Assembly (NCBI GenBank): GCA_017398335.1
Contig: JAFQGK010000044.1
Location: forward strand, 1 to 33,919
From: Bacteroidales bacterium
GTDB taxonomy: Bacteria; Bacteroidota; Bacteroidia; Bacteroidales; UBA932
DNA: 33,919 bases
Direction of reading: 5' to 3'
In this document: one piece after another, positions 6,313 through 20,011 of the stretch
How positions within the stretch are numbered: position 1 is the first letter of the stretch
Layout of the letters: the number at the start of each line of letters is the position of its first letter
Made by a program: the position numbers and the translations under genes
Notes under the pieces: model-generated
Database searches by the model: none
What the model saw: the letters and a program-made list of their open reading frames with translations, nothing else
Told to the model about the DNA's origin: nothing

Positions 6313-7620
6313 TTAGATCTTTACGCCATGGTAGTGAGGGCCGAAGCGTTCGAAGGCTGCGCGGTCGAGCTCCTCCTGGTGGTCAGGATGGGCGATGCTG
6401 ATGAGAAGCTTTGCACGTTCCTGCATTGACTTGCCGTAGAGGTCTACAGCTCCGAATTCGGTCACAACGTAATGTACGTGCGGTCTTGTAGTCACGACTC
6501 CGCCACCCTCTATGATGGTAGGGGCAATCTTGCTTCCTCCCTTGTTGGTGCATGATGGCATGGCAATGATGGCCTTGCCCTGAGGGGCAAGTGAGGCTCC
6601 GTAGACGAAGTCGACCTGACCTCCGACTCCAGAGTAGAAGCGGGTGCCGATCGAGTCGGCGCAGACCTGACCGGTAAGGTCAATCTGTACTGCAGAATTG
6701 ATGGCTGTCATCTTAGGATTCTTCGAAATGACGAAAGGATCATTGGTGTATCCTACATCCATCATGGCGACCATCGGATTATCATCAATAAAGTCATATA
6801 CCTTCTGGGAACCCATGAGGAAGGTCGAGACTAGCTTTCCCTTGTCTGTCACTTTGTTTGAACCGTTGATGACGCCTTTCTCCACAAGCTCCAGGACTCC
6901 GTCTGCAAACATCTCGGTGTGGACTCCAAGATTCTTGTGATTGCCAAGCTGGGCCAGAACGGCGTTAGGAATAGCTCCGATGCCCATCTGAAGGCATGCA
7001 CCGTCATCAATAAGGGCAGCACAATGCTTTCCGATAGCGATTTCAACCTCGTTCGGATCGCTGAAGTGTGCAGGCTCCAATGGCTCGTTTCCTTCGACAA
7101 ATATATCGATCATATCCATAGGAATCATCGCCTGACCCCATGCGCGCGGAACGTTAGGATTCACAACGGCAATTACGGTCTTTGCGCATTCGATCGCTGC
7201 AAGAGTCGCATCGACAGATGTTCCCAGTGAAACATATCCATGCTTGTCAGGAGGACATACCTGAATCATTGCGACATCACAAGGCAGTGCTCCGCATCTG
7301 TAAAGTTTCTGTGTCTCGCTCAAGAAGACCGGAATATAGTCTGAATAGCCGGCCTGGACACTCTTCCTTACATTGGCTCCTACGAAGAATGCCTGATGGA
7401 AAAATATTCCGTCAAATTTCGGATCGGTGTATGGCGCCGGACCTTCCGTATGGAGATGATGGATGCGTACATCCTGCAGTTCTCCTGCTTCTCCTCTTCT
7501 GCAGAGGGCCTCTATGAGGATACGTGGCGCGCTTGCGACGCTGCTAAGGTGGATGTGGTCACCGGATTTTACGACCTTTACGGCCTCGTCAGCCGAAACG
7601 AAATGAATGTCCTTTTTCAT
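6313..7620 (-). CDS. Acetyl-CoA hydrolase/CoA-transferase family protein
   Basis: 435 residues of the Cat1/4-hydroxybutyrate CoA-transferase family (family I CoA-transferase fold). The catalytic Glu is probably E236 in LGVHTEMFADG, which forms the glutamyl-CoA thioester in this family. The oxyanion and CoA-binding glycine segment QMGIGAIPNAV lies just before it. Other conserved segments are VCPPDKHGYVSLGTS, FYSGVGGQVDF and the C-terminal VVTEFGAVDLYGKSMQERA. The reaction is transfer of CoA between acetyl- or acyl-CoA and a carboxylate (acetate, butyrate, 4-hydroxybutyrate, propionate or succinate); the exact acids cannot be read from the sequence. It is a plausible step in fermentative short-chain acid production. 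It starts 66 bp from the divergent mazG gene and has no partner genes of a butyrate or 4-hydroxybutyrate pathway nearby. Confidence 0.9.
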   Translation of the reverse strand: MKKDIHFVSADEAVKVVKSGDHIHLSSVASAPRILIEALCRRGEAGELQDVRIHHLHTEGPAPYTDPKFDGIFFHQAFFVGANVRKSVQAGYSDYIPVFLSETQKLYRCGALPCDVAMIQVCPPDKHGYVSLGTSVDATLAAIECAKTVIAVVNPNVPRAWGQAMIPMDMIDIFVEGNEPLEPAHFSDPNEVEIAIGKHCAALIDDGACLQMGIGAIPNAVLAQLGNHKNLGVHTEMFADGVLELVEKGVINGSNKVTDKGKLVSTFLMGSQKVYDFIDDNPMVAMMDVGYTNDPFVISKNPKMTAINSAVQIDLTGQVCADSIGTRFYSGVGGQVDFVYGASLAPQGKAIIAMPSCTNKGGSKIAPTIIEGGGVVTTRPHVHYVVTEFGAVDLYGKSMQERAKLLISIAHPDHQEELDRAAFERFGPHYHGVKI

Positions 7621-7639
7621 ATATATGTGGTTGAGGTCT

Positions 7640-7647
7640 CAAAGATA
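7640..7647 (-). promoter_or_regulatory. -7 element for the CoA-transferase gene
   Basis: Read on the minus strand this is TATCTTTG, an exact match to TAnnTTTG, ending 20 bp before the ATG at 7620. The nearest upstream TTTG lies 25 bp away, longer than the usual 19-21, so the -33 box is uncertain. Confidence 0.45.
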
Positions 7648-7658
7648 AGATTTTTTCT

Positions 7659-7666
7659 TATTTTTG
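7659..7666 (+). promoter_or_regulatory. -7 element for the mazG-tcdA-lipoprotein operon
   Basis: TATTTTTG matches TAnnTTTG exactly and lies 21 bp before the mazG ATG. It is back-to-back with the minus-strand -7 element at 7640-7647, leaving 11 bp between them. RNA polymerase could probably not occupy both at once. Confidence 0.45.
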
Positions 7667-7686
7667 TCACTTCAAACACATATAAT

Positions 7687-8505
7687 ATGCATACAAGAGA
7701 AGAGAAGCTTCAGGCTTTCGGACGCATCCTTGACGTTCTTGATGAATTGAGAGAGAAATGTCCGTGGGACAGGAAGCAGACAAACGAGTCGCTTCGCCCT
7801 CAGACCATAGAGGAAGTCTATGAACTTAGCGATGCCATCCTCAAAGGAGAGGAACACGAACTGTCAAAGGAACTAGGAGATGTGCTTCTACACGTTCTTT
7901 TCTATTCGAAGATAGGAGAGGAGAAGCAGCACTTCGATGTTGTGGATGTCATCAACTTCCTGTGTGATAAGCTGATCTATCGTCATCCGCACGTATTCTC
8001 TTCTGCTGAGGTGGGTAGTGCTGAGGATGTGGTGAAGCAATGGGAAATGCTCAAGACAAAGGAGAAGGACGGAAACAAGCGTGTACTTTCGGGCGTACCT
8101 GATACCCTCCCGCCGCTTCTGAAGGCATATCGTATGCAGGACAAGGCTCGTGGTGTCGGCTTTGACTGGGAGAAGAAGGAAGATGTCTGGGAGAAGGTGA
8201 AAGAGGAAATGGGTGAATATCAGGCAGAACTGGATGCCATGGCAGCCGCGCAGACGGAAGATGAAAAGAAGGCCGCATATGACCGGGCTGAGGATGAACT
8301 TGGTGATTTTCTTTTTGCAACAGTCAATGCAGCAAGACTCTACGGCCTGAATCCGGATACTGCCCTGGAACGTACGTGTGCCAAATTCAGACGTCGTTTC
8401 ACATATCTTGAAGAGCATACCATCAGGCAGGGACGGGATCTCAAGGATATGACCTTAGCGGAGATGGATGCAATCTGGGACGAGGGCAAGGCTAAAGGAC
8501 TATAA
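7687..8505 (+). CDS. mazG: Nucleoside triphosphate pyrophosphohydrolase MazG
   Basis: 272 residues with the two MazG domains of the full-length housekeeping enzyme. Domain 1 (about 10-115) begins with LREKCPWDRKQTNESL and carries the Mg-binding pattern E-E-V-Y-E-L...E-L-G-D. Domain 2 (about 140-260) has KARGVGFDW and EEMGEYQAEL...EDELGDFLFA. The enzyme hydrolyses NTPs and dNTPs to NMP and PPi and is thought to clear non-canonical nucleotides or affect ppGpp pools. The frame is open far upstream (to 7396), but that part is antisense to the CoA-transferase. The ATG at 7687 gives the standard family N-terminus and lies 21 bp after a good -7 element. tcdA starts 1 bp after its stop, so the two are co-translated. 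Confidence 0.95.
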   Translation: MHTREEKLQAFGRILDVLDELREKCPWDRKQTNESLRPQTIEEVYELSDAILKGEEHELSKELGDVLLHVLFYSKIGEEKQHFDVVDVINFLCDKLIYRHPHVFSSAEVGSAEDVVKQWEMLKTKEKDGNKRVLSGVPDTLPPLLKAYRMQDKARGVGFDWEKKEDVWEKVKEEMGEYQAELDAMAAAQTEDEKKAAYDRAEDELGDFLFATVNAARLYGLNPDTALERTCAKFRRRFTYLEEHTIRQGRDLKDMTLAEMDAIWDEGKAKGL

Positions 8506-12215: not shown

Positions 12216-13298
12216 ATGGCAGATAATTCACTGTTGGAGAAGGTATTAGGCCTTCAGGAGAAATATGATGCGCTTCAGGCTCAGCTTGCAGATCCGGAAG
12301 TGATATCTGATATGAAGAGATTCGTGCAGCTCAATAAGGAGTACAAGGAACTGACTCCGATCATTGAGGCTGGAAATGAATTCAAGAAGGTTCTTGAGAA
12401 TTACGAGATGGCAAAGGAGATTCTTGCCACCGAGAAGGATGAGGACCTTAGAGAAATGGCAAAGGAAGAAATTGCAGAGATTGAACCTAAGCTTCCGGAT
12501 ATGGAGCAGAATATCAAGCTTCTCCTTATTCCTGCTGACCCTCAGGACAGCAAGAACGCTATCCTTGAGATCCGTGGTGGCTCAGGTGGAGATGAGGCTG
12601 CTATTTTTGCAGGTGACCTTTTCCGTATGTATTCCAAGTTCTGTGAAACCCGTGGTTGGAGACTTGAGGTTACCAATCAGGCTGAAGGAGCGGCAGGCGG
12701 ATTCAAGGAAATCGTATGCAAGGTATCAGGTGACGGCGTGTATGGTGTCCTGAAATATGAATCAGGTGTTCATCGTGTGCAGCGCGTACCCCAGACAGAA
12801 ACTCAGGGCCGCGTACATACATCAGCAGCGTCTGTAGCAGTACTTCCGGAAGCAGATGAGTTTGATATTGAATTGAATATGAACGACATCCGTAAGGATA
12901 CTTTCTGCTCTTCAGGTCCTGGAGGACAGTCGGTCAACACCACATATTCCGCTATCCGTCTTACACATATCCCATCTGGTCTCGTAGTTCAGTGCCAGGA
13001 TGAAAAGTCACAGCTGAAGAATTTCGACAAGGCTCTTGCCGAGCTTCGTACCCGTCTTTATAACATGGAGTATGAAAAATATCTGGCGGAGATCTCAGCA
13101 AAGCGTAAGACAATGGTTGCAGGTGGTGACCGTTCAGCAAAGATACGCACATATAACTATCCTCAGTCGCGCGTGACCGACCATCGTATCAATTATACGA
13201 TGTATAATCTTCCGGTATTTATGGATGGTGCGATTCAGGATGTGATTGATCAGCTTCAGATTGCCGAAAACGCAGAGCGCCTTAAGGCGGCAGAGTAG
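12216..13298 (+). CDS. prfA: Peptide chain release factor 1
   Basis: 360 residues, the usual RF1 length. The N-terminal helical domain is followed by the stop-codon recognition region with P192-Q193-T194 (RVPQTETQGRVHTSAA), the P-x-T motif that marks RF1 and its UAA/UAG specificity rather than RF2 (S-P-F). The catalytic G236-G237-Q238 lies in SSGPGGQSVN, where the Gln is normally methylated by PrmC. It ends translation at UAA and UAG in the ribosomal A site. It shares a predicted transcript with the GNAT-like gene upstream. The stop is UAG, one of its own codons. It is followed by the first copy of the double-hairpin repeat, which may end the transcript. Confidence 0.97.
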   Translation: MADNSLLEKVLGLQEKYDALQAQLADPEVISDMKRFVQLNKEYKELTPIIEAGNEFKKVLENYEMAKEILATEKDEDLREMAKEEIAEIEPKLPDMEQNIKLLLIPADPQDSKNAILEIRGGSGGDEAAIFAGDLFRMYSKFCETRGWRLEVTNQAEGAAGGFKEIVCKVSGDGVYGVLKYESGVHRVQRVPQTETQGRVHTSAASVAVLPEADEFDIELNMNDIRKDTFCSSGPGGQSVNTTYSAIRLTHIPSGLVVQCQDEKSQLKNFDKALAELRTRLYNMEYEKYLAEISAKRKTMVAGGDRSAKIRTYNYPQSRVTDHRINYTMYNLPVFMDGAIQDVIDQLQIAENAERLKAAE

Positions 13299-13317
13299 TC
13301 TAGGGACAATTCACATA

Positions 13318-13431
13318 CATTAGCGTGCACAGGAGGGATTTTCGTGACCCCTGTGCGCGCTAATCTGCTTTTGGTGGCTCTCAGTCCGGTTTGTCCGTAC
13401 ACGGGAGGTCCAGAAAATGCCCCCTGTGTAC
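13318..13431 (+). repeat. Double-hairpin REP/BIME-like element, copy A
   Basis: A 114-bp element repeated at 15688-15801 with 9 differences, all transitions (92% identity). Hairpin 1 pairs 13321-13333 with 13350-13362: 13 bp with one G-T pair, loop containing GATTTTC. Hairpin 2 pairs 13397-13405 with 13423-13431: 9 bp with one G-T pair. The reverse complement of hairpin 2 resembles hairpin 1 (GTRCACAGG-R-GG-S-ATTTTC...GACC), so the element is two REP-like units in inverted orientation, as in a BIME. It starts 19 bp after prfA and ends 1 bp before the RAYT stop codon, between two convergent genes. Such hairpins may stop transcription from both sides, protect mRNA ends, or be substrates of the neighbouring RAYT. 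Confidence 0.88.
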
Positions 13432-13432
13432 C

Positions 13433-14332
13433 TCAACTGCTTAATATTCGGGATATAATATCACGAGGAAGTCCTAGAACTCTGCTCAACTGTGGGATTG
13501 ATGTCTTGTTGTTGAAGAAGACAGTCTTTATAATAGAGCATTTCTGCTGATTCGTCAATTCGGCTATCTTCTTTCCGTTGAATCTGCTTGCAGCTATTTT
13601 CTCAGTAGATGATAAAAGGTCAGTGTCATTGACGCCAAGCAGTGGCTTGCACGCCATTTCATATTCCATTAAGGCATCATTACATGTGCCGAGATGAAAA
13701 AGGAATAGTCTGCCTGAATTTATAAATGCTTTCTCTACAATCTCATATGCAACGAATGATCTGGGCGATATCATGCCTTCCATATTGATTGTGAATGGAC
13801 AGTCTTCCAGGTCCGGCCTTGTTTTCAGTACTCTTCTTATCTCTCGTGGTCCCATTGAAGTTATGCTCCTGTAATCTTCGTCACAGTCTCTGAAATAGCA
13901 GAAGTAACTTGACCATGGATAGTCTTCTATCTTTCTGCAGACCTTTGCACTGATTGAGTTTCTCAATATGTAGGCTATGCAGTTTCGGAAGTATTGAATT
14001 GTGTCAATAAGCGAAATGCTGTCCTTTATTTTGTGTAGAGCCTTCCTCAAGCCATATTTCCTTTTAAGATAAGTTGAATATGACTGTTTGAAAAGCTTTA
14101 TGAATTGTTCGGCTTGTTCTCGACTCCGACATATGCACATTGTGTGTATATGATTGGACATAAGGCAGAAGGCAACGATGATGGTCTTAGTCTTCCATGA
14201 TGTAATGGCAAGATAGTTCAATGCTGTCCGGAAATCTTCTTCGTCTCTCATGATGATGGGACTTTCTTCTCCATTAGTGCAGATGTGATAGCAGTTGCCC
14301 TCGAAAAGTTCTTCAAGAATTATGGTTTTCAT
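13433..14332 (-). CDS. REP-associated tyrosine transposase (RAYT, Y1/HUH family)
   Basis: 299 residues. The IS200-like Y1 transposase domain covers about 1-160. The HUH metal-binding motif is H61-I-H63 in CLMSNHIHTMCI. The RAYT hallmarks Y121-I-L-R-N-S (family Y-I-x-x-N-P, Tyr121 the candidate nucleophile; Tyr85, Tyr88 and Tyr93 are alternatives) and DYPWSSYFCYF follow. The C-terminus (about 240-299) is a helix-turn-helix-like extension (STEKIAASRF..., ISIPQ-like QLSRVLGLPRDIISRIL). These enzymes nick and join single-stranded REP/BIME DNA and are thought to spread those repeats; they are usually single copy. Here the stop codon lies next to copy A of a REP-like element, with copy B 2.4 kb away. 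The gene appears intact. I found no clear promoter in front of it. Confidence 0.9.
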   Translation of the reverse strand: MKTIILEELFEGNCYHICTNGEESPIIMRDEEDFRTALNYLAITSWKTKTIIVAFCLMSNHIHTMCICRSREQAEQFIKLFKQSYSTYLKRKYGLRKALHKIKDSISLIDTIQYFRNCIAYILRNSISAKVCRKIEDYPWSSYFCYFRDCDEDYRSITSMGPREIRRVLKTRPDLEDCPFTINMEGMISPRSFVAYEIVEKAFINSGRLFLFHLGTCNDALMEYEMACKPLLGVNDTDLLSSTEKIAASRFNGKKIAELTNQQKCSIIKTVFFNNKTSIPQLSRVLGLPRDIISRILSS

Positions 14333-14471
14333 TATATGGGTTTTACCCTAAAATTAGGTTTATGGTAGGTCATTCCGGTTGTATTATAAAAAACATATGT
14401 CAGATTTTTCTTTTTTTTATGATTATAAATAAATTTTAGTATGGTAAGATTTACTTTTATATCAAATATAA

Positions 14472-14486
14472 TTAACTAATTGTTAA
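14472..14486 (+). promoter_or_regulatory. Candidate operator (inverted repeat TTAAC-5-GTTAA)
   Basis: A perfect 5-bp inverted repeat with a 5-bp centre, ending 6 bp before the -33 box. With a second repeat over the -7 box (14505-14521) that has the same 5-bp centre, it is a candidate site for the XRE regulator encoded last in the operon. In AT-rich DNA such a short repeat can occur by chance. Confidence 0.3.
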
Positions 14487-14492
14487 ATACGC

Positions 14493-14522
14493 TTGACAAA
14501 TAGAAAAGTTTATTTAACTTTG
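14493..14522 (+). promoter_or_regulatory. Promoter of the membrane-protein/XRE operon
   Basis: TTG (14493-14495, in CTTGAC) and TAACTTTG (14515-14522) are separated by 19 bp, an exact fit to the Bacteroidota sigma-ABfr pattern. It lies 42 bp before the ATG at 14565. A 6-bp inverted repeat, AAAGTT-TATTT-AACTTT (14505-14521), overlaps the -7 element, so a bound repressor would block it. Confidence 0.72.
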
Positions 14523-14564
14523 TGTCGAGAAATTCACAATATGTCTAATAAACGATGAGCTATT

Positions 14565-15038
14565 ATGAAAAAGAATTATCTCTTGCCAAACTTCTTTAAG
14601 AAAGTCGGTTTGGTGATGTTTCTGCCGTTCTGCATTGCTTGCGTGTGGCTTCTTCTTGGCCCCGGAGAATGTGATTTGATTCTTGTTGATGTGCCAGCTT
14701 TTTTGACTCTTGATCTGGATGGCGTGGATGACTGGTTCGAGATGACTAAGACGGATCCTATAAACGAAATCTGTATGCTCGGATTCATTGTTTCACTCGT
14801 ATTTGTGGCACTTTCAAGAGAAAAGGATGAGGATGAAATGACGGCAGTAGTAAGAATGCAGTCATTCGTGTGGAGCTTCTGGTGTACTGCAATAGTTGAG
14901 GCTGTAGCGGTTTTGCTGACCTATGAGCTGACATTCCTGAATTTCGCCTTTGTGTCAGTGTTTGTGTGCTTCCTGAGTTATATAATAAAGTTCAATTTCG
15001 AAATGGCTAAGATAAGGAGGATGGAAAATGAAAAATAG
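14565..15038 (+). CDS. Small four-helix membrane protein (paralogue 1)
   Basis: 157 residues, family not recognised by name. Four membrane segments are predicted (about 14-34, 67-85, 103-122, 125-142). It shares with the next gene the N-terminal pattern Y-x-L-P-x-x-x-K-K-V-G-x-x-M and a conserved acidic cytoplasmic motif after the second helix, L-S-x-E-K-x-E-D-E-M (here LSREKDEDEM). The two are therefore diverged tandem duplicates. Its reading frame overlaps the next by 11 bp. Membrane protein pairs like this, encoded with a very small XRE repressor, recur in Bacteroidota and Firmicutes genomes, usually without assigned function. The predicted loop between helices 1 and 2 is long and acidic (GPGECDLILVD...DDWFEM). 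Function is unknown. Confidence 0.82.
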   Translation: MKKNYLLPNFFKKVGLVMFLPFCIACVWLLLGPGECDLILVDVPAFLTLDLDGVDDWFEMTKTDPINEICMLGFIVSLVFVALSREKDEDEMTAVVRMQSFVWSFWCTAIVEAVAVLLTYELTFLNFAFVSVFVCFLSYIIKFNFEMAKIRRMENEK

Positions 15039-15483
15039 GTCTTATATGTTGCCTTATTACTATAAGAAGGTTGGTTGGATCATGTTGGTCTGTACTCCTG
15101 TCTTTTTTGTCTTGGGACTTCTGGCGTTCAGGTGGGAATTGATAGCAAATATGCATAGCAGATATCTTACTATGATATTGTATATGATGCTCTTTGCCGG
15201 CATGTTTATGGTTGTTCTCTCAGAAGAGAAAGAAGAAGATGAAATGATCATGTCTATTCGCCAAAATTCGGTTAGCCTTACAGCTTTGGTAGTATTTGTG
15301 CTCTATATTGCCGCATCATTGACTATTGCTTTTGCGGAAGGTTTCCGTAGCCTTCAGTTCGGCGGGATTTATAGATTTCATGCTATAATTTCCAACATAA
15401 TGACTCCTCTCCTGATTTATCTTGCGATATTTCGTTTTATGATCTGGAGACTTAGAAGACAATGTAAGGAGGATAATGCATGA
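15028..15483 (+). CDS. Small four-helix membrane protein (paralogue 2)
   Basis: 151 residues with four predicted membrane segments (about 15-34, 45-64, 83-103, 121-140). It begins MKNRSYMLPYYYKKVGWIM and carries the shared motif LSEEKEEDEM after the second helix, matching the upstream gene. The C-terminal tail is basic (MIWRLRRQ). It overlaps the upstream gene by 11 bp and overlaps the XRE gene by 4 bp (ATGA), so the three are translationally coupled. The tight coupling to a repressor suggests that level or ratio matters, as in sensor or stress-response membrane modules. No catalytic residues are visible, and no toxin hallmark is seen either. Confidence 0.82.
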   Translation: MKNRSYMLPYYYKKVGWIMLVCTPVFFVLGLLAFRWELIANMHSRYLTMILYMMLFAGMFMVVLSEEKEEDEMIMSIRQNSVSLTALVVFVLYIAASLTIAFAEGFRSLQFGGIYRFHAIISNIMTPLLIYLAIFRFMIWRLRRQCKEDNA

Positions 15484-15680
15484 GGAATACTGTAAAAGTC
15501 GAGAGGGCTATCAGAGATATCACGCAGCAGGAGTTGGCAGATCTGGTGGGGGTTTCACGTCAGACTATAAACTTCATTGAGACTGGGAGATATATGCCTT
15601 CAGCTATTGTTGCTCTGAAGATTGCGCGTTGCTTTGGAAAGCATGCAGACGAGATATTTATTCTTGAAGATGGTGACTGA
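15480..15680 (+). CDS. Small XRE/Cro-C1 family transcriptional regulator
   Basis: 66 residues, nearly all a HTH_3 domain. The helix-turn-helix is TQQELADLVGVSRQTINFIE (about 15-34), followed by TGRYMPSAIVALKIARCFGKHADEIF. This compact type typically dimerises and represses the operon it is encoded in, often beside small membrane proteins. Here it is the last gene of the three-gene operon, overlapping the previous stop (ATGA). Two inverted repeats at the operon promoter (14472-14486 and 14505-14521) are candidate binding sites. It is followed 7 bp later by copy B of the BIME-like element. Confidence 0.9.
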   Translation: MRNTVKVERAIRDITQQELADLVGVSRQTINFIETGRYMPSAIVALKIARCFGKHADEIFILEDGD

Positions 15681-15687
15681 TATTGCT

Positions 15688-15801
15688 CATTAGTGTGCAC
15701 AGGAGGAATTTTTGCGACCTCTGTGCACGCTAATCTGCTTTCGGTGGCTCTCAGCCCGGTTTGTCCGTACACGGGAGGTCCAGAAAATGCCCCCTGTGCA
15801 C
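15688..15801 (+). repeat. Double-hairpin REP/BIME-like element, copy B
   Basis: Second copy of the 13318-13431 element, same orientation, 9 transitions apart. Hairpin 1 pairs 15691-15703 with 15720-15732, 13 bp with two G-T pairs. All three stem differences from copy A keep pairing through G-T exchange (C-G to T-G, T-G to T-A, G-C to G-T). Hairpin 2 (15767-15775 with 15793-15801) is weaker because one A-T pair became A-C. It lies between convergent genes (XRE plus, LytTR minus), as copy A lies between prfA and the RAYT gene, which fits a bidirectional terminator or mRNA-protecting role. Confidence 0.88.
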
Positions 15802-15814
15802 ATTTGAGGTCAGT

Positions 15815-16696
15815 CTAGTCGATTGGATCGAGGAGTGGCTGCTTCTCAGTGAAGTAGGCAAGAACGATGTCTGTGTATGTCTTGGTTACAGGAAGCGTAG
15901 GAATTGCTTCGTTGTCAAGATCCAGTACATAGGCATCGCTTTCTTTTCTCAGGACCTTTACCTTTTCTATGTTCACGATGTACTTCCTGTTGCATCTGAC
16001 AAGGGCACTCCCTTTGAAACTCTCCTCTACAGTCTTCAGACGGCATCTGAGCATATATTGTTTAAGCTCTCCCTTACTGTCTGTATACCAGACCTTTATG
16101 TAATTATCATCTGATTCTATATAATAAAGACTGTCGAGGTTTAGAGAAAGTTTCAGAGCTCCGCTGTTGTCGAACAATGTGACCTTGTGCATGGGAACTC
16201 CGTTCGCTGGAACTTCGTCAGTAACGACATTCTCGTAGCTCATCAGACGGATCGTCTTGTTCTTGTCATTGATTGAAAAGTACATTCCGGAGATAAGGTA
16301 TGGTATTCCCAGAGCGATGCAACCGCGTAGGAACGCCCTGCCGAATACCATTATATTCGTTTCGTTGAGAATGTCTATGCCGACGGTAATCCATGTATAG
16401 ATGCCCGCTATGACGGCTATTTCAGCGATACACCACATTGTGTATCCGAGATATGTCATATCAAACAGCGGCTTTGATCTGTACATCGCCACCCTGCTGC
16501 CGATAAGAGCAAGAATTGATGATGCAATAAATATCAATGTACTCGTGAATGTCGCTGATTTACCTAAGCCGAACCAGGCTGTTTCAGAAAACGGTATATA
16601 TATGTTCAGGTATACTATGGCAAAGAGAACTGAGAATGTCACAGTGCCGATCAGCTGGTATTTACCCAGCAGGTATGATGGTAATTTCTTATTCAT
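15815..16696 (-). CDS. Membrane-tethered LytTR-family transcriptional regulator
   Basis: 293 residues from the ATG at 16696 (MNKKLPSYLLGKYQ). Four membrane helices (about 13-36, 48-71, 83-107, 119-142) are followed by a linker and a C-terminal LytTR DNA-binding domain (about 190-285: YYIESDDNYIKVWYT, YMLRCRLKTVEESF, ALVRCNRKYIVNIEKV, LPVTKTY). There is no response-regulator receiver domain, so this is a one-component, membrane-bound regulator of a kind common in Bacteroidota. The longer frame (ATG at 16735) is rejected because it lies inside a strong promoter. Its target is unknown; the divergent fabF or the nearby membrane-protein operon are candidates only by position. Its 3' end lies 13 bp from BIME copy B. 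Confidence 0.88.
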   Translation of the reverse strand: MNKKLPSYLLGKYQLIGTVTFSVLFAIVYLNIYIPFSETAWFGLGKSATFTSTLIFIASSILALIGSRVAMYRSKPLFDMTYLGYTMWCIAEIAVIAGIYTWITVGIDILNETNIMVFGRAFLRGCIALGIPYLISGMYFSINDKNKTIRLMSYENVVTDEVPANGVPMHKVTLFDNSGALKLSLNLDSLYYIESDDNYIKVWYTDSKGELKQYMLRCRLKTVEESFKGSALVRCNRKYIVNIEKVKVLRKESDAYVLDLDNEAIPTLPVTKTYTDIVLAYFTEKQPLLDPID

Positions 16697-16704
16697 TTCG
16701 AGGA

Positions 16705-16736
16705 CAAATGTAAAACTTTTTGCTTCAAAATACAAA
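16705..16736 (-). promoter_or_regulatory. Promoter of the LytTR gene (very short leader)
   Basis: On the minus strand TTTG (16733-16736), 20 bp, then TACATTTG (16705-16712), an exact consensus match. The -7 element ends 8 bp before the ATG at 16696, so the transcript leader would be only a few bases. Either the mRNA is nearly leaderless or an unseen start is used. Confidence 0.6.
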
Positions 16737-19889: not shown

Positions 19890-19895
19890 TTCGCG

Positions 19896-19995
19896 TTTAC
19901 CGGACATCCGGAGGCAAAGGTTCGTCTCGCGGAATACAATCCGCCTACGGCGGATCAACGCTTGACTCATCCTTTGCCTCCGGATGTCCGGTAAA
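19896..19995. repeat. 100-bp palindromic element with perfect 25-bp arms
   Basis: 19896-19920 and 19971-19995 are exact reverse complements (25 of 25). Each arm contains a smaller self-pairing unit, CCGGA-CA-TCCGG or its complement. The 50-bp core holds a 7-bp-stem hairpin ATCCGCC-TAC-GGCGGAT (19939-19955) and a competing pairing GCGGA/TCCGC (19929-19933 with 19940-19944). It contains no gene. It resembles a miniature palindromic repeat or MITE, or a structured RNA. It sits between the winged-helix gene and ppdK, just before a bidirectional terminator. Confidence 0.85.
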
Positions 19996-20011
19996 TGCAG
20001 GATATGCAAAA

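Follow-up and report, generated by a model that had tools for sequence, protein, structure and literature searches.

Can a REP-associated tyrosine transposase (RAYT; REP, repetitive extragenic palindrome) hold, and perhaps carry, genes that have nothing to do with its own repeats? The question is raised by a stretch of 33,919 nucleotides from a Bacteroidales bacterium of the UBA932 lineage (contig JAFQGK010000044.1 of assembly GCA_017398335.1), hereafter the window, which is one whole contig. In it a RAYT gene and an unrelated operon of two membrane proteins and an XRE-type regulator lie between two direct copies of an element resembling a bacterial interspersed mosaic element (BIME). A preliminary description of the window had remarked that RAYTs are usually domesticated, single-copy genes, which agrees with PMC8049555 and PMC8266576; the former adds that they are vertically inherited and that their use to the cell is unknown. 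It had suggested that the block might nevertheless be a mobile unit with passenger genes. We put at roughly one in two the probability that the block forms a unit of some 2.5 kb centred on the RAYT, with matched double-hairpin (BIME-like) ends and a passenger operon, that behaves by the mechanism proposed below. As a unit of inheritance it is well supported, and the evidence supports a unit with passengers while stopping short of active mobility.

The operon diverges from the minus-strand RAYT gene, and the parts of the block are as follows.

13318..13431, plus strand: end repeat copy A, made of two hairpins inverted relative to each other, 1 nt off the RAYT stop codon
13362..13368, plus strand: AATCTGC motif of copy A, directly 3' of hairpin 1
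13433..14332, minus strand: RAYT, 299 amino acids, with HUH and tyrosine motifs and a C-terminal helical domain
14333..14564, no strand assigned: divergent intergenic region between RAYT and operon, presumably the promoter region
14565..15038, plus strand: MP1 (membrane protein 1), 157 amino acids, four hydrophobic segments by hydropathy, no Pfam or NCBIfam family
15028..15483, plus strand: MP2, 151 amino acids, four hydrophobic segments by hydropathy, no Pfam or NCBIfam family, overlapping both MP1 and XRE
15480..15680, plus strand: XRE-type helix-turn-helix (HTH) regulator, 66 amino acids, Pfam HTH_3 (3.3e-15)
15688..15801, plus strand: end repeat copy B, a direct repeat of copy A (92%), 7 nt past the XRE stop codon
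15732..15738, plus strand: AATCTGC motif of copy B, directly 3' of hairpin 1

The two end copies, each 114 nt long, 92% identical and in the same orientation, constitute by far the longest repeat of the window (the next has 35 nt), and repeat search and folding both confirmed the double-hairpin elements that had been described. DNA folding compared with shuffled sequences gave z values of -3.60 for copy A, -3.71 for copy B and -2.87 for the other strand of copy A. The best predicted fold of copy A is the two hairpins; in that of copy B the outer arms pair instead, each of the four arms being complementary to the other three. Repeat search found no BIME between the RAYT gene and the operon in the window. 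The tetranucleotide GTAG/GTGG is absent from the hairpin foot; each window copy has one GTRG word, located in the spacer. With G000 denoting the genome of the window and other G numbers genomes of the same genus, the motif GGGGWSAS, a mark of the flanking repeats of TIRtrons and subclass 2.1 (see below), occurs in three of 26 elements tested (G000A, G432A and G432B). An ATnTGC-like motif stands 3' of hairpin 1 in most unit families (it is absent or altered in G056, G286, G339B and G437) and might possibly serve as a recognition tag. A search of the G000 assembly (2.2 Mb, 86% complete) at E 0.001 found no further copy of the 114-nt element beyond A and B, and the same element gave a single weak match of 23 nt, in one genome, among 399 other genomes of the genus.

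The position of the RAYT stop codon beside copy A and the identity of the gene were borne out by the 1-nt distance, the Pfam Y1_Tnp match (4.9e-06), the HUH motif and the structural comparison, in which an AlphaFold model (pLDDT 80) found its best PDB match in the RAYT-REP hairpin complex 4er8 (E 2.6e-05). The match to NCBIfam REP_Tyr_transpos has an E value of 4.9e-11 and a score of 42.7 bits, below the curated cut-off of 80. Residues N60, H61, H63 and Y121 are invariant across a 15-row RAYT alignment, and Y1_Tnp was found in 15 of the 15 rows. The window protein is a distant member of the REP-associated transposases. Its model has helices at 236-298, and no HTH family reached its cut-off for this protein; a putative placement as a TIRtron or in subclass 2.1 is based on length and layout. 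The make-up of the operon was likewise confirmed, by hydropathy for the two membrane proteins and by Pfam HTH_3 for the regulator. Three other, distant RAYTs are present in the G000 assembly, one of them also between direct repeats, of 120 nt.

The arrangement recurs in the genus. Our survey took in 47 RAYT places in 48 loci, mainly top-scoring RAYT matches and not a random sample, some of them from near relatives; 37 were testable, and 10 near contig ends were left out. The compared genomes are mostly incomplete, and the 15 named relative loci all come from uncultured Bacteroidales metagenome-assembled genomes, of ruminant gut wherever the source is stated. A flanking pair, defined as repeats of at least 60 nt and at least 68% identity, was present at 26 of the 37 RAYT loci (19 direct, 7 inverted) and at none of 102 control open reading frames (ORFs) of 200-450 amino acids. 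Eight of the 26 pairs enclose over 1 kb in addition to the RAYT gene. Their contents include the MP1-MP2-XRE operon (G106 and G396), an extracytoplasmic function (ECF) sigma factor with a membrane protein (G339, G432 and G277, and also G024, which lies close to a contig end and is not one of the 37), a DUF819 protein (G004), a putative lipoprotein with a membrane protein and a winged-helix regulator (G054) and, in G038, just one ORF of doubtful reality. In both the MP1-MP2-XRE and the sigma types the operon points away from the RAYT gene, and the outer genes on both sides stop no more than about 12 nt from a repeat.

The neighbourhoods of the sigma-type units are two, Lrp-(SLC13)-unit-(AQP or GH43) and FBA-unit-PPA, the neighbour genes being putatively named from their sequences. 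The RAYTs of the two form one clade (100/100), which also holds RAYTs from other places; those of G432, G339, G277 and G377, all from one neighbourhood, are 68-75% identical (five pairs computed) and their ends are different. A jump of sigma cargo between Lrp and GH43 sites was considered and dropped, as the two proved to be a single neighbourhood that either has SLC13 or lacks it. The MP1-MP2-XRE unit was seen at the prfA site only, and an MP1 relative was found in 10 of 120 other genus genomes searched, G106 included. What is left of the 3' part of an MP2-like gene in G223 (contig C120, L281:4146-4403) lies beside a sigma operon that has neither RAYT nor repeats, and marks a further site where the passenger operon has left a trace.

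Two observations concern other RAYTs of the genus. Small ORFs (121-187 amino acids) directly 5' of RAYTs of another branch look alike (L103:6345-6791, L106:7947-8510 and L109:6101-6466); that of L103, the one tested, has no Pfam match, and a RAYT companion gene is possible. In G039 (L088:5339-6177 and 7261-8115) and G350 (L156 and L158) long tandem repeat arrays, with a period of about 73 nt in G039, lie on both sides of the RAYT gene.

The block stands at the 3' end of prfA, between these two genes.

12216..13298, plus strand: prfA (release factor 1), left flank, NCBIfam PRK00591.1 (2e-152), stop codon 19 nt before copy A
15815..16735, minus strand: LytTR-domain membrane regulator, right flank, Pfam LytTR (2.9e-12)

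In G106, G396 and G227 the RAYT gene and the MP1-MP2-XRE operon are found in the same order and orientation between prfA and the LytTR gene, with a thioesterase gene between block and LytTR gene in G106 and G227. The G106 end repeats have 113 nt, are 97% identical and show a start-to-start spacing of 2370, equal to that of the window, and those of G396 are 90% identical; G227 has kept copy A and, by eye, about 19 nt of copy B. Among 30 prfA 3' loci (window included, two loci not resolved) four have the block, two have remnants of it (G026 and G381) and 24 are without it. A PaaI-like thioesterase gene lies 0-11 nt past prfA in 11 of the 30 and 74 nt past it in one; five (L207-L211, from G282, G416, G338, G223 and G437) have instead an ORF of 461-474 amino acids, membrane-like by eye; and in G056 there is a RAYT-only unit in a rearranged neighbourhood. 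Block genes were not found in 11 more genomes, each with 1.6-4.6 kb 3' of prfA, where the thioesterase lies 17 nt from prfA in one and about 3.1 kb away in another, and five have neither LytTR gene nor thioesterase. The direct adjacency of prfA and LytTR gene that had been envisaged for strains lacking the block does exist, at 8-46 nt in four of the 30 loci and at 10-15 nt in four of the 11. Since the tight prfA-thioesterase junction is the commonest state (11/30), the block would be the derived state at this site. In none of these 30 + 11 loci (about 0.7-4.6 kb each) was the operon seen without the RAYT gene.

Some further features of these places may be recorded here. The prfA 3' site looks prone to frequent gene turnover, as with the 461-474-residue ORF in five other genomes. 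In G056 (L076) the RAYT unit lies at an inversion breakpoint, KASII-LytTR being inverted relative to prfA, and the FBA-PPA site has RAYT units that face opposite ways in L089 and L149; inversion may be favoured by the nearly palindromic ends. Elsewhere in the window (19893-19998) there is a 28-nt inverted repeat between ORFs, with arms 96% complementary and 50 nt apart, which is unrelated to the block.

The ends of a unit resemble each other far more than they resemble those of other units. In 12 units with both copies the identity within a unit is 82-99%, a value that is partly built in, as these units were picked by a detected pair, and this tells against our reading; the low identity between units, with a mean of 57% (range 46-77 in 260 comparisons, which exclude the G106-G396 pair) against a shuffled mean of 50 and maximum of 56, is not built in. 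In G223 and G437, sister species in the prfA tree with units at the FBA-PPA site, the RAYTs are 84% identical and the ends 94% and 91% identical within each unit, and the ends of one are only 55-58% identical to those of the other. The hairpins persist through this turnover. With one copy from each of the 12 units, from whose sequences the structure was itself defined, 87.5% of cells were paired versus 68.6 +/- 1.8 in shuffled alignments, and the covariation score was 0.581 versus 0.241 +/- 0.024, and far less in slid controls; 22 of the 26 hairpin pairs have changes on both sides, and RNAalifold reported compensatory changes in 23 of the 25 pairs of the outer-arm fold. Compensatory changes preserve the hairpin pairing, and both ends change together.

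The preliminary description had raised the question of more element copies in the genome, and had held active dispersal unlikely should the element exist only here. None was found in G000; diverged dispersed copies of a sister family, the G106-type element, are present in relatives, with match rows numbering 9 in G106, 11 in G396, 1 in G227, 4 in G026, 20 in G381 and 0 in G250, some rows being both strands of one place. The idea that the repeats are in general private to their units was dropped on account of these copies. In copy B of G396 (L143:5235-5347) hairpin 2 runs the opposite way to that of copy A; 37 nt match the other copy perfectly when inverted, so that the loop alone looks inverted, which may be a record of hairpin cutting or template switching.

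As to descent, our species argument uses the prfA tree alone, midpoint-rooted and with many forks open. In this DNA tree G000 is sister to the block-free G431 (98/94), outside a clade (96/93) that holds the other carriers. G000 is 58-60% identical to G106 and G227 in RAYT, 67-69% in MP1 and 42-46% in MP2, where the latter two genomes are 86%, 92% and 88% identical to each other; the corresponding figures are 79-86 versus 89% for XRE, 95-96 versus 97% for prfA, 66-72 versus 72% for LytTR and, with G396 replacing G106, 80-82 versus 88% for KASII. Expressed as a ratio of the two divergences, this amounts to 2.9-4.8 for RAYT, MP1 and MP2, and to 1.3-1.9 for XRE, 1.3-1.7 for prfA, 1.5-1.7 for KASII (again with G396 for G106) and 1.0-1.2 for LytTR. 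Between the ends of G000 and those of G106, G396 and G227 the identity is only 50-57%. The RAYT, MP1 and MP2 of G000 seem to have diverged further than simple vertical inheritance would allow, so that more than one gain, or exchange of the whole block, probably took place at prfA: either the unit arrived at this site at least twice, or it was exchanged into G000 from a distant donor, which fits the long LytTR branch of G000 (0.61). An old presence is possible but would call for many losses, each restoring the tight junction.

IS200/IS605 elements have a Y1 transposase and hairpin ends, and no target duplication is expected of them. Unlike these elements, the block is resident at conserved sites and has the same double hairpin directly repeated at both ends, and no tnpB was seen in the unit. 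With REPtrons it shares an HUH-Y1 transposase gene and REP-like double hairpins right past the stop codon, each RAYT having its own repeat family; it differs from them in its direct, near-identical end copies, the sole two found in G000, in the passenger operon inside and in the lack of GTAG at the hairpin foot. The dispersed cognate repeats that belong to a REPtron are not seen in G000, and are seen in G381, G396, G106 and G026. REPtrons are described as not moving as units (PMC6006769), and Nunvar (2010) likened a RAYT between two inverted REPs to a transposable element and reported BIMEs at one third of such RAYTs (PMC2817692). TIRtrons have terminal inverted repeats around a transposase gene (PMC3733652). 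They and their transposases (TIRYTs; TnpA_Y1 subclass 2.1 of PMC6006769, for which that paper reports no REP-like sequences nearby) share with the present units longer RAYT-like proteins with an extra C-terminal domain, and long matched repeats, possibly self-complementary, that bound the gene and differ from gene to gene (PMC3733652); unlike the inverted repeats of TIRtrons, ours are mostly direct double-hairpin copies, some with cargo. In the REPIN/RAYT replicators of Bertels and Rainey, too, two inverted REPs make one element and the RAYT is resident and of low copy number (PMC8049555); REPINs form dispersed populations, and in G000 the two end copies alone are detectable. We found no description of a RAYT with cargo or passenger genes in titles and abstract openings of the open-access literature, and the block is best filed as a cargo-holding variant of REPtrons and TIRtrons.

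The mechanism that we propose as the most likely is this. The RAYT would recognise its own end hairpins as single strands, much as known RAYTs do with REPs, and copying or rejoining by the RAYT, or gene conversion between the ends, would hold the ends in step with each other as they turn over in sequence. The unit would mostly stay put and be lost piecemeal; over longer times the whole block would have reached the prfA 3' end more than once, whether through the RAYT or because species exchanged it. What is observed is that the unit recurs, that its ends match and turn over with their structure preserved, and that its parts are separable. That the RAYT acts on the ends we infer from the action of the RAYTs of E. 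coli and its relatives on REP hairpins (PMC8266576) together with the compensatory evolution. The unit would also have moved with its cargo, with the RAYT as a possible mover.

A number of findings weigh against this reading. No flanking pair was detected at 11 of the 37 RAYT loci, some of the 37 being from near relatives. The earlier suggestion of a mobile unit held for the unit, which recurs in G106, G396 and G227, and found no support as regards present-day mobility. In 16 units no target duplication beyond chance was found (the longest shared word has 3-7 nt, and two of the 16 have P of about 0.03), so that this candidate was rejected, and no common target word stands out in the same 16. 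Outside both ends of the window block the word AGTCTAG is present (13297-13303 and 15812-15818, 14 and 10 nt away), with P 0.028 taken alone, among 16 tests; random flank pairs share such a 7-nt word in about 3% of trials. The window flanks joined at this word resemble the natural empty site of G032, the first 16 nt differing at three positions, which is suggestive only. Precise excision was not found, the junctions of G026 and G381 being imprecise by eye. In G026 only the final portion of a G106-like copy B is left, meeting the left flank (by eye) at a CGAC microhomology, and in G381 copy A alone remains, with the RAYT stop region; these are imprecise, piecemeal losses and not excisions. Most of copy B is gone from the prfA site of G227, which has apparently also lost the RAYT of its sigma unit while keeping the operon and the right repeat. 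No copy or relative was found in viral contigs or plasmids, so carriage by phage or plasmid was set aside. In the RAYT tree the proteins cluster mainly by site, as resident genes would.

The partnership of RAYT and cargo is also loose. RAYT-only units stand where relatives have cargo (G377, G223, G437 and G039), and they occur in both sigma neighbourhoods in other species, in opposite orientation at FBA-PPA. MP1-XRE pairs occur elsewhere with no RAYT found in stretches of about 10 kb, and sigma pairs likewise exist without one. At the prfA loci examined the operon was not seen without a RAYT; given the findings elsewhere, the two are separable. A single origin of the RAYT-linked sigma pairs would mean one joint move of RAYT and operon. 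This idea was weakened, as the sigma tree (5 versus 10 rows, the short G282 row dropped) leaves these pairs unresolved, with an approximately unbiased (AU) p of 0.211 for one clade, and the tree of the partner protein groups them at just 84/83, which is not strong.

The rival that survives best is a stepwise island, in which a resident REPtron settled beside a host operon and further BIME copies were inserted at gene ends, so that the bracketing is accidental and the operon never moves with the RAYT. BIMEs do lie directly past stop codons, the G106-type family is dispersed in G381, G396, G106 and G026, RAYT-only units are bracketed too, and parts are lost independently. On the other hand such an island leaves it odd that the operon without RAYT was not seen among the 30 + 11 prfA 3' loci examined, that there is no BIME between RAYT and operon in the window and that the two ends change together, and it would require the same four genes to assemble at one place in lineages separated by block-free ones. 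We regard it as doubtful, though worth keeping in mind. We also think it unlikely that the RAYT moves passenger operons and that the block is a composite single-strand transposon, its direct double-hairpin ends bounding a regulator and membrane-protein operon, inserted repeatedly at the prfA 3' end, with ends matched by copying and both switching hairpin sequence together; its odds were lowered because one origin of the RAYT-linked sigma operons was not established. Alternatively, the block might have arisen once and spread by homologous recombination in the prfA-LytTR flanks, not by the RAYT, and would be a unit by joint inheritance or exchange. The flanks are conserved genes, and the LytTR tree disagrees with the prfA tree, the long G000 branch looking as if it came from a distant donor with the block. 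This would leave unexplained both the matched but species-specific ends and the sigma units with the same layout in two neighbourhoods, and we consider it quite unlikely. Ordinary terminators or unrelated intergenic repeats, associated with the RAYT by chance, are most improbable and were rejected: hairpins past stop codons could terminate transcription, but the contrast of 26/37 RAYT loci with 0/102 control ORFs, the duplication of the whole 114-nt element and the two-hairpin architecture kept across 12 units are against them.

RAYT units with matched ends and regulatory passengers, as preferred here, lead to the idea that RAYTs may be kept for carrying or insulating useful operons. A second idea is that the enzyme may keep both end repeats the same as each other even as they change in sequence; between the close species G223 and G437 both ends are swapped and the RAYT is still 84% identical, an unusually clean case of RAYT-repeat co-evolution. 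Taken together, this suggests that supposedly tame transposases can hold, and perhaps move, passenger genes.

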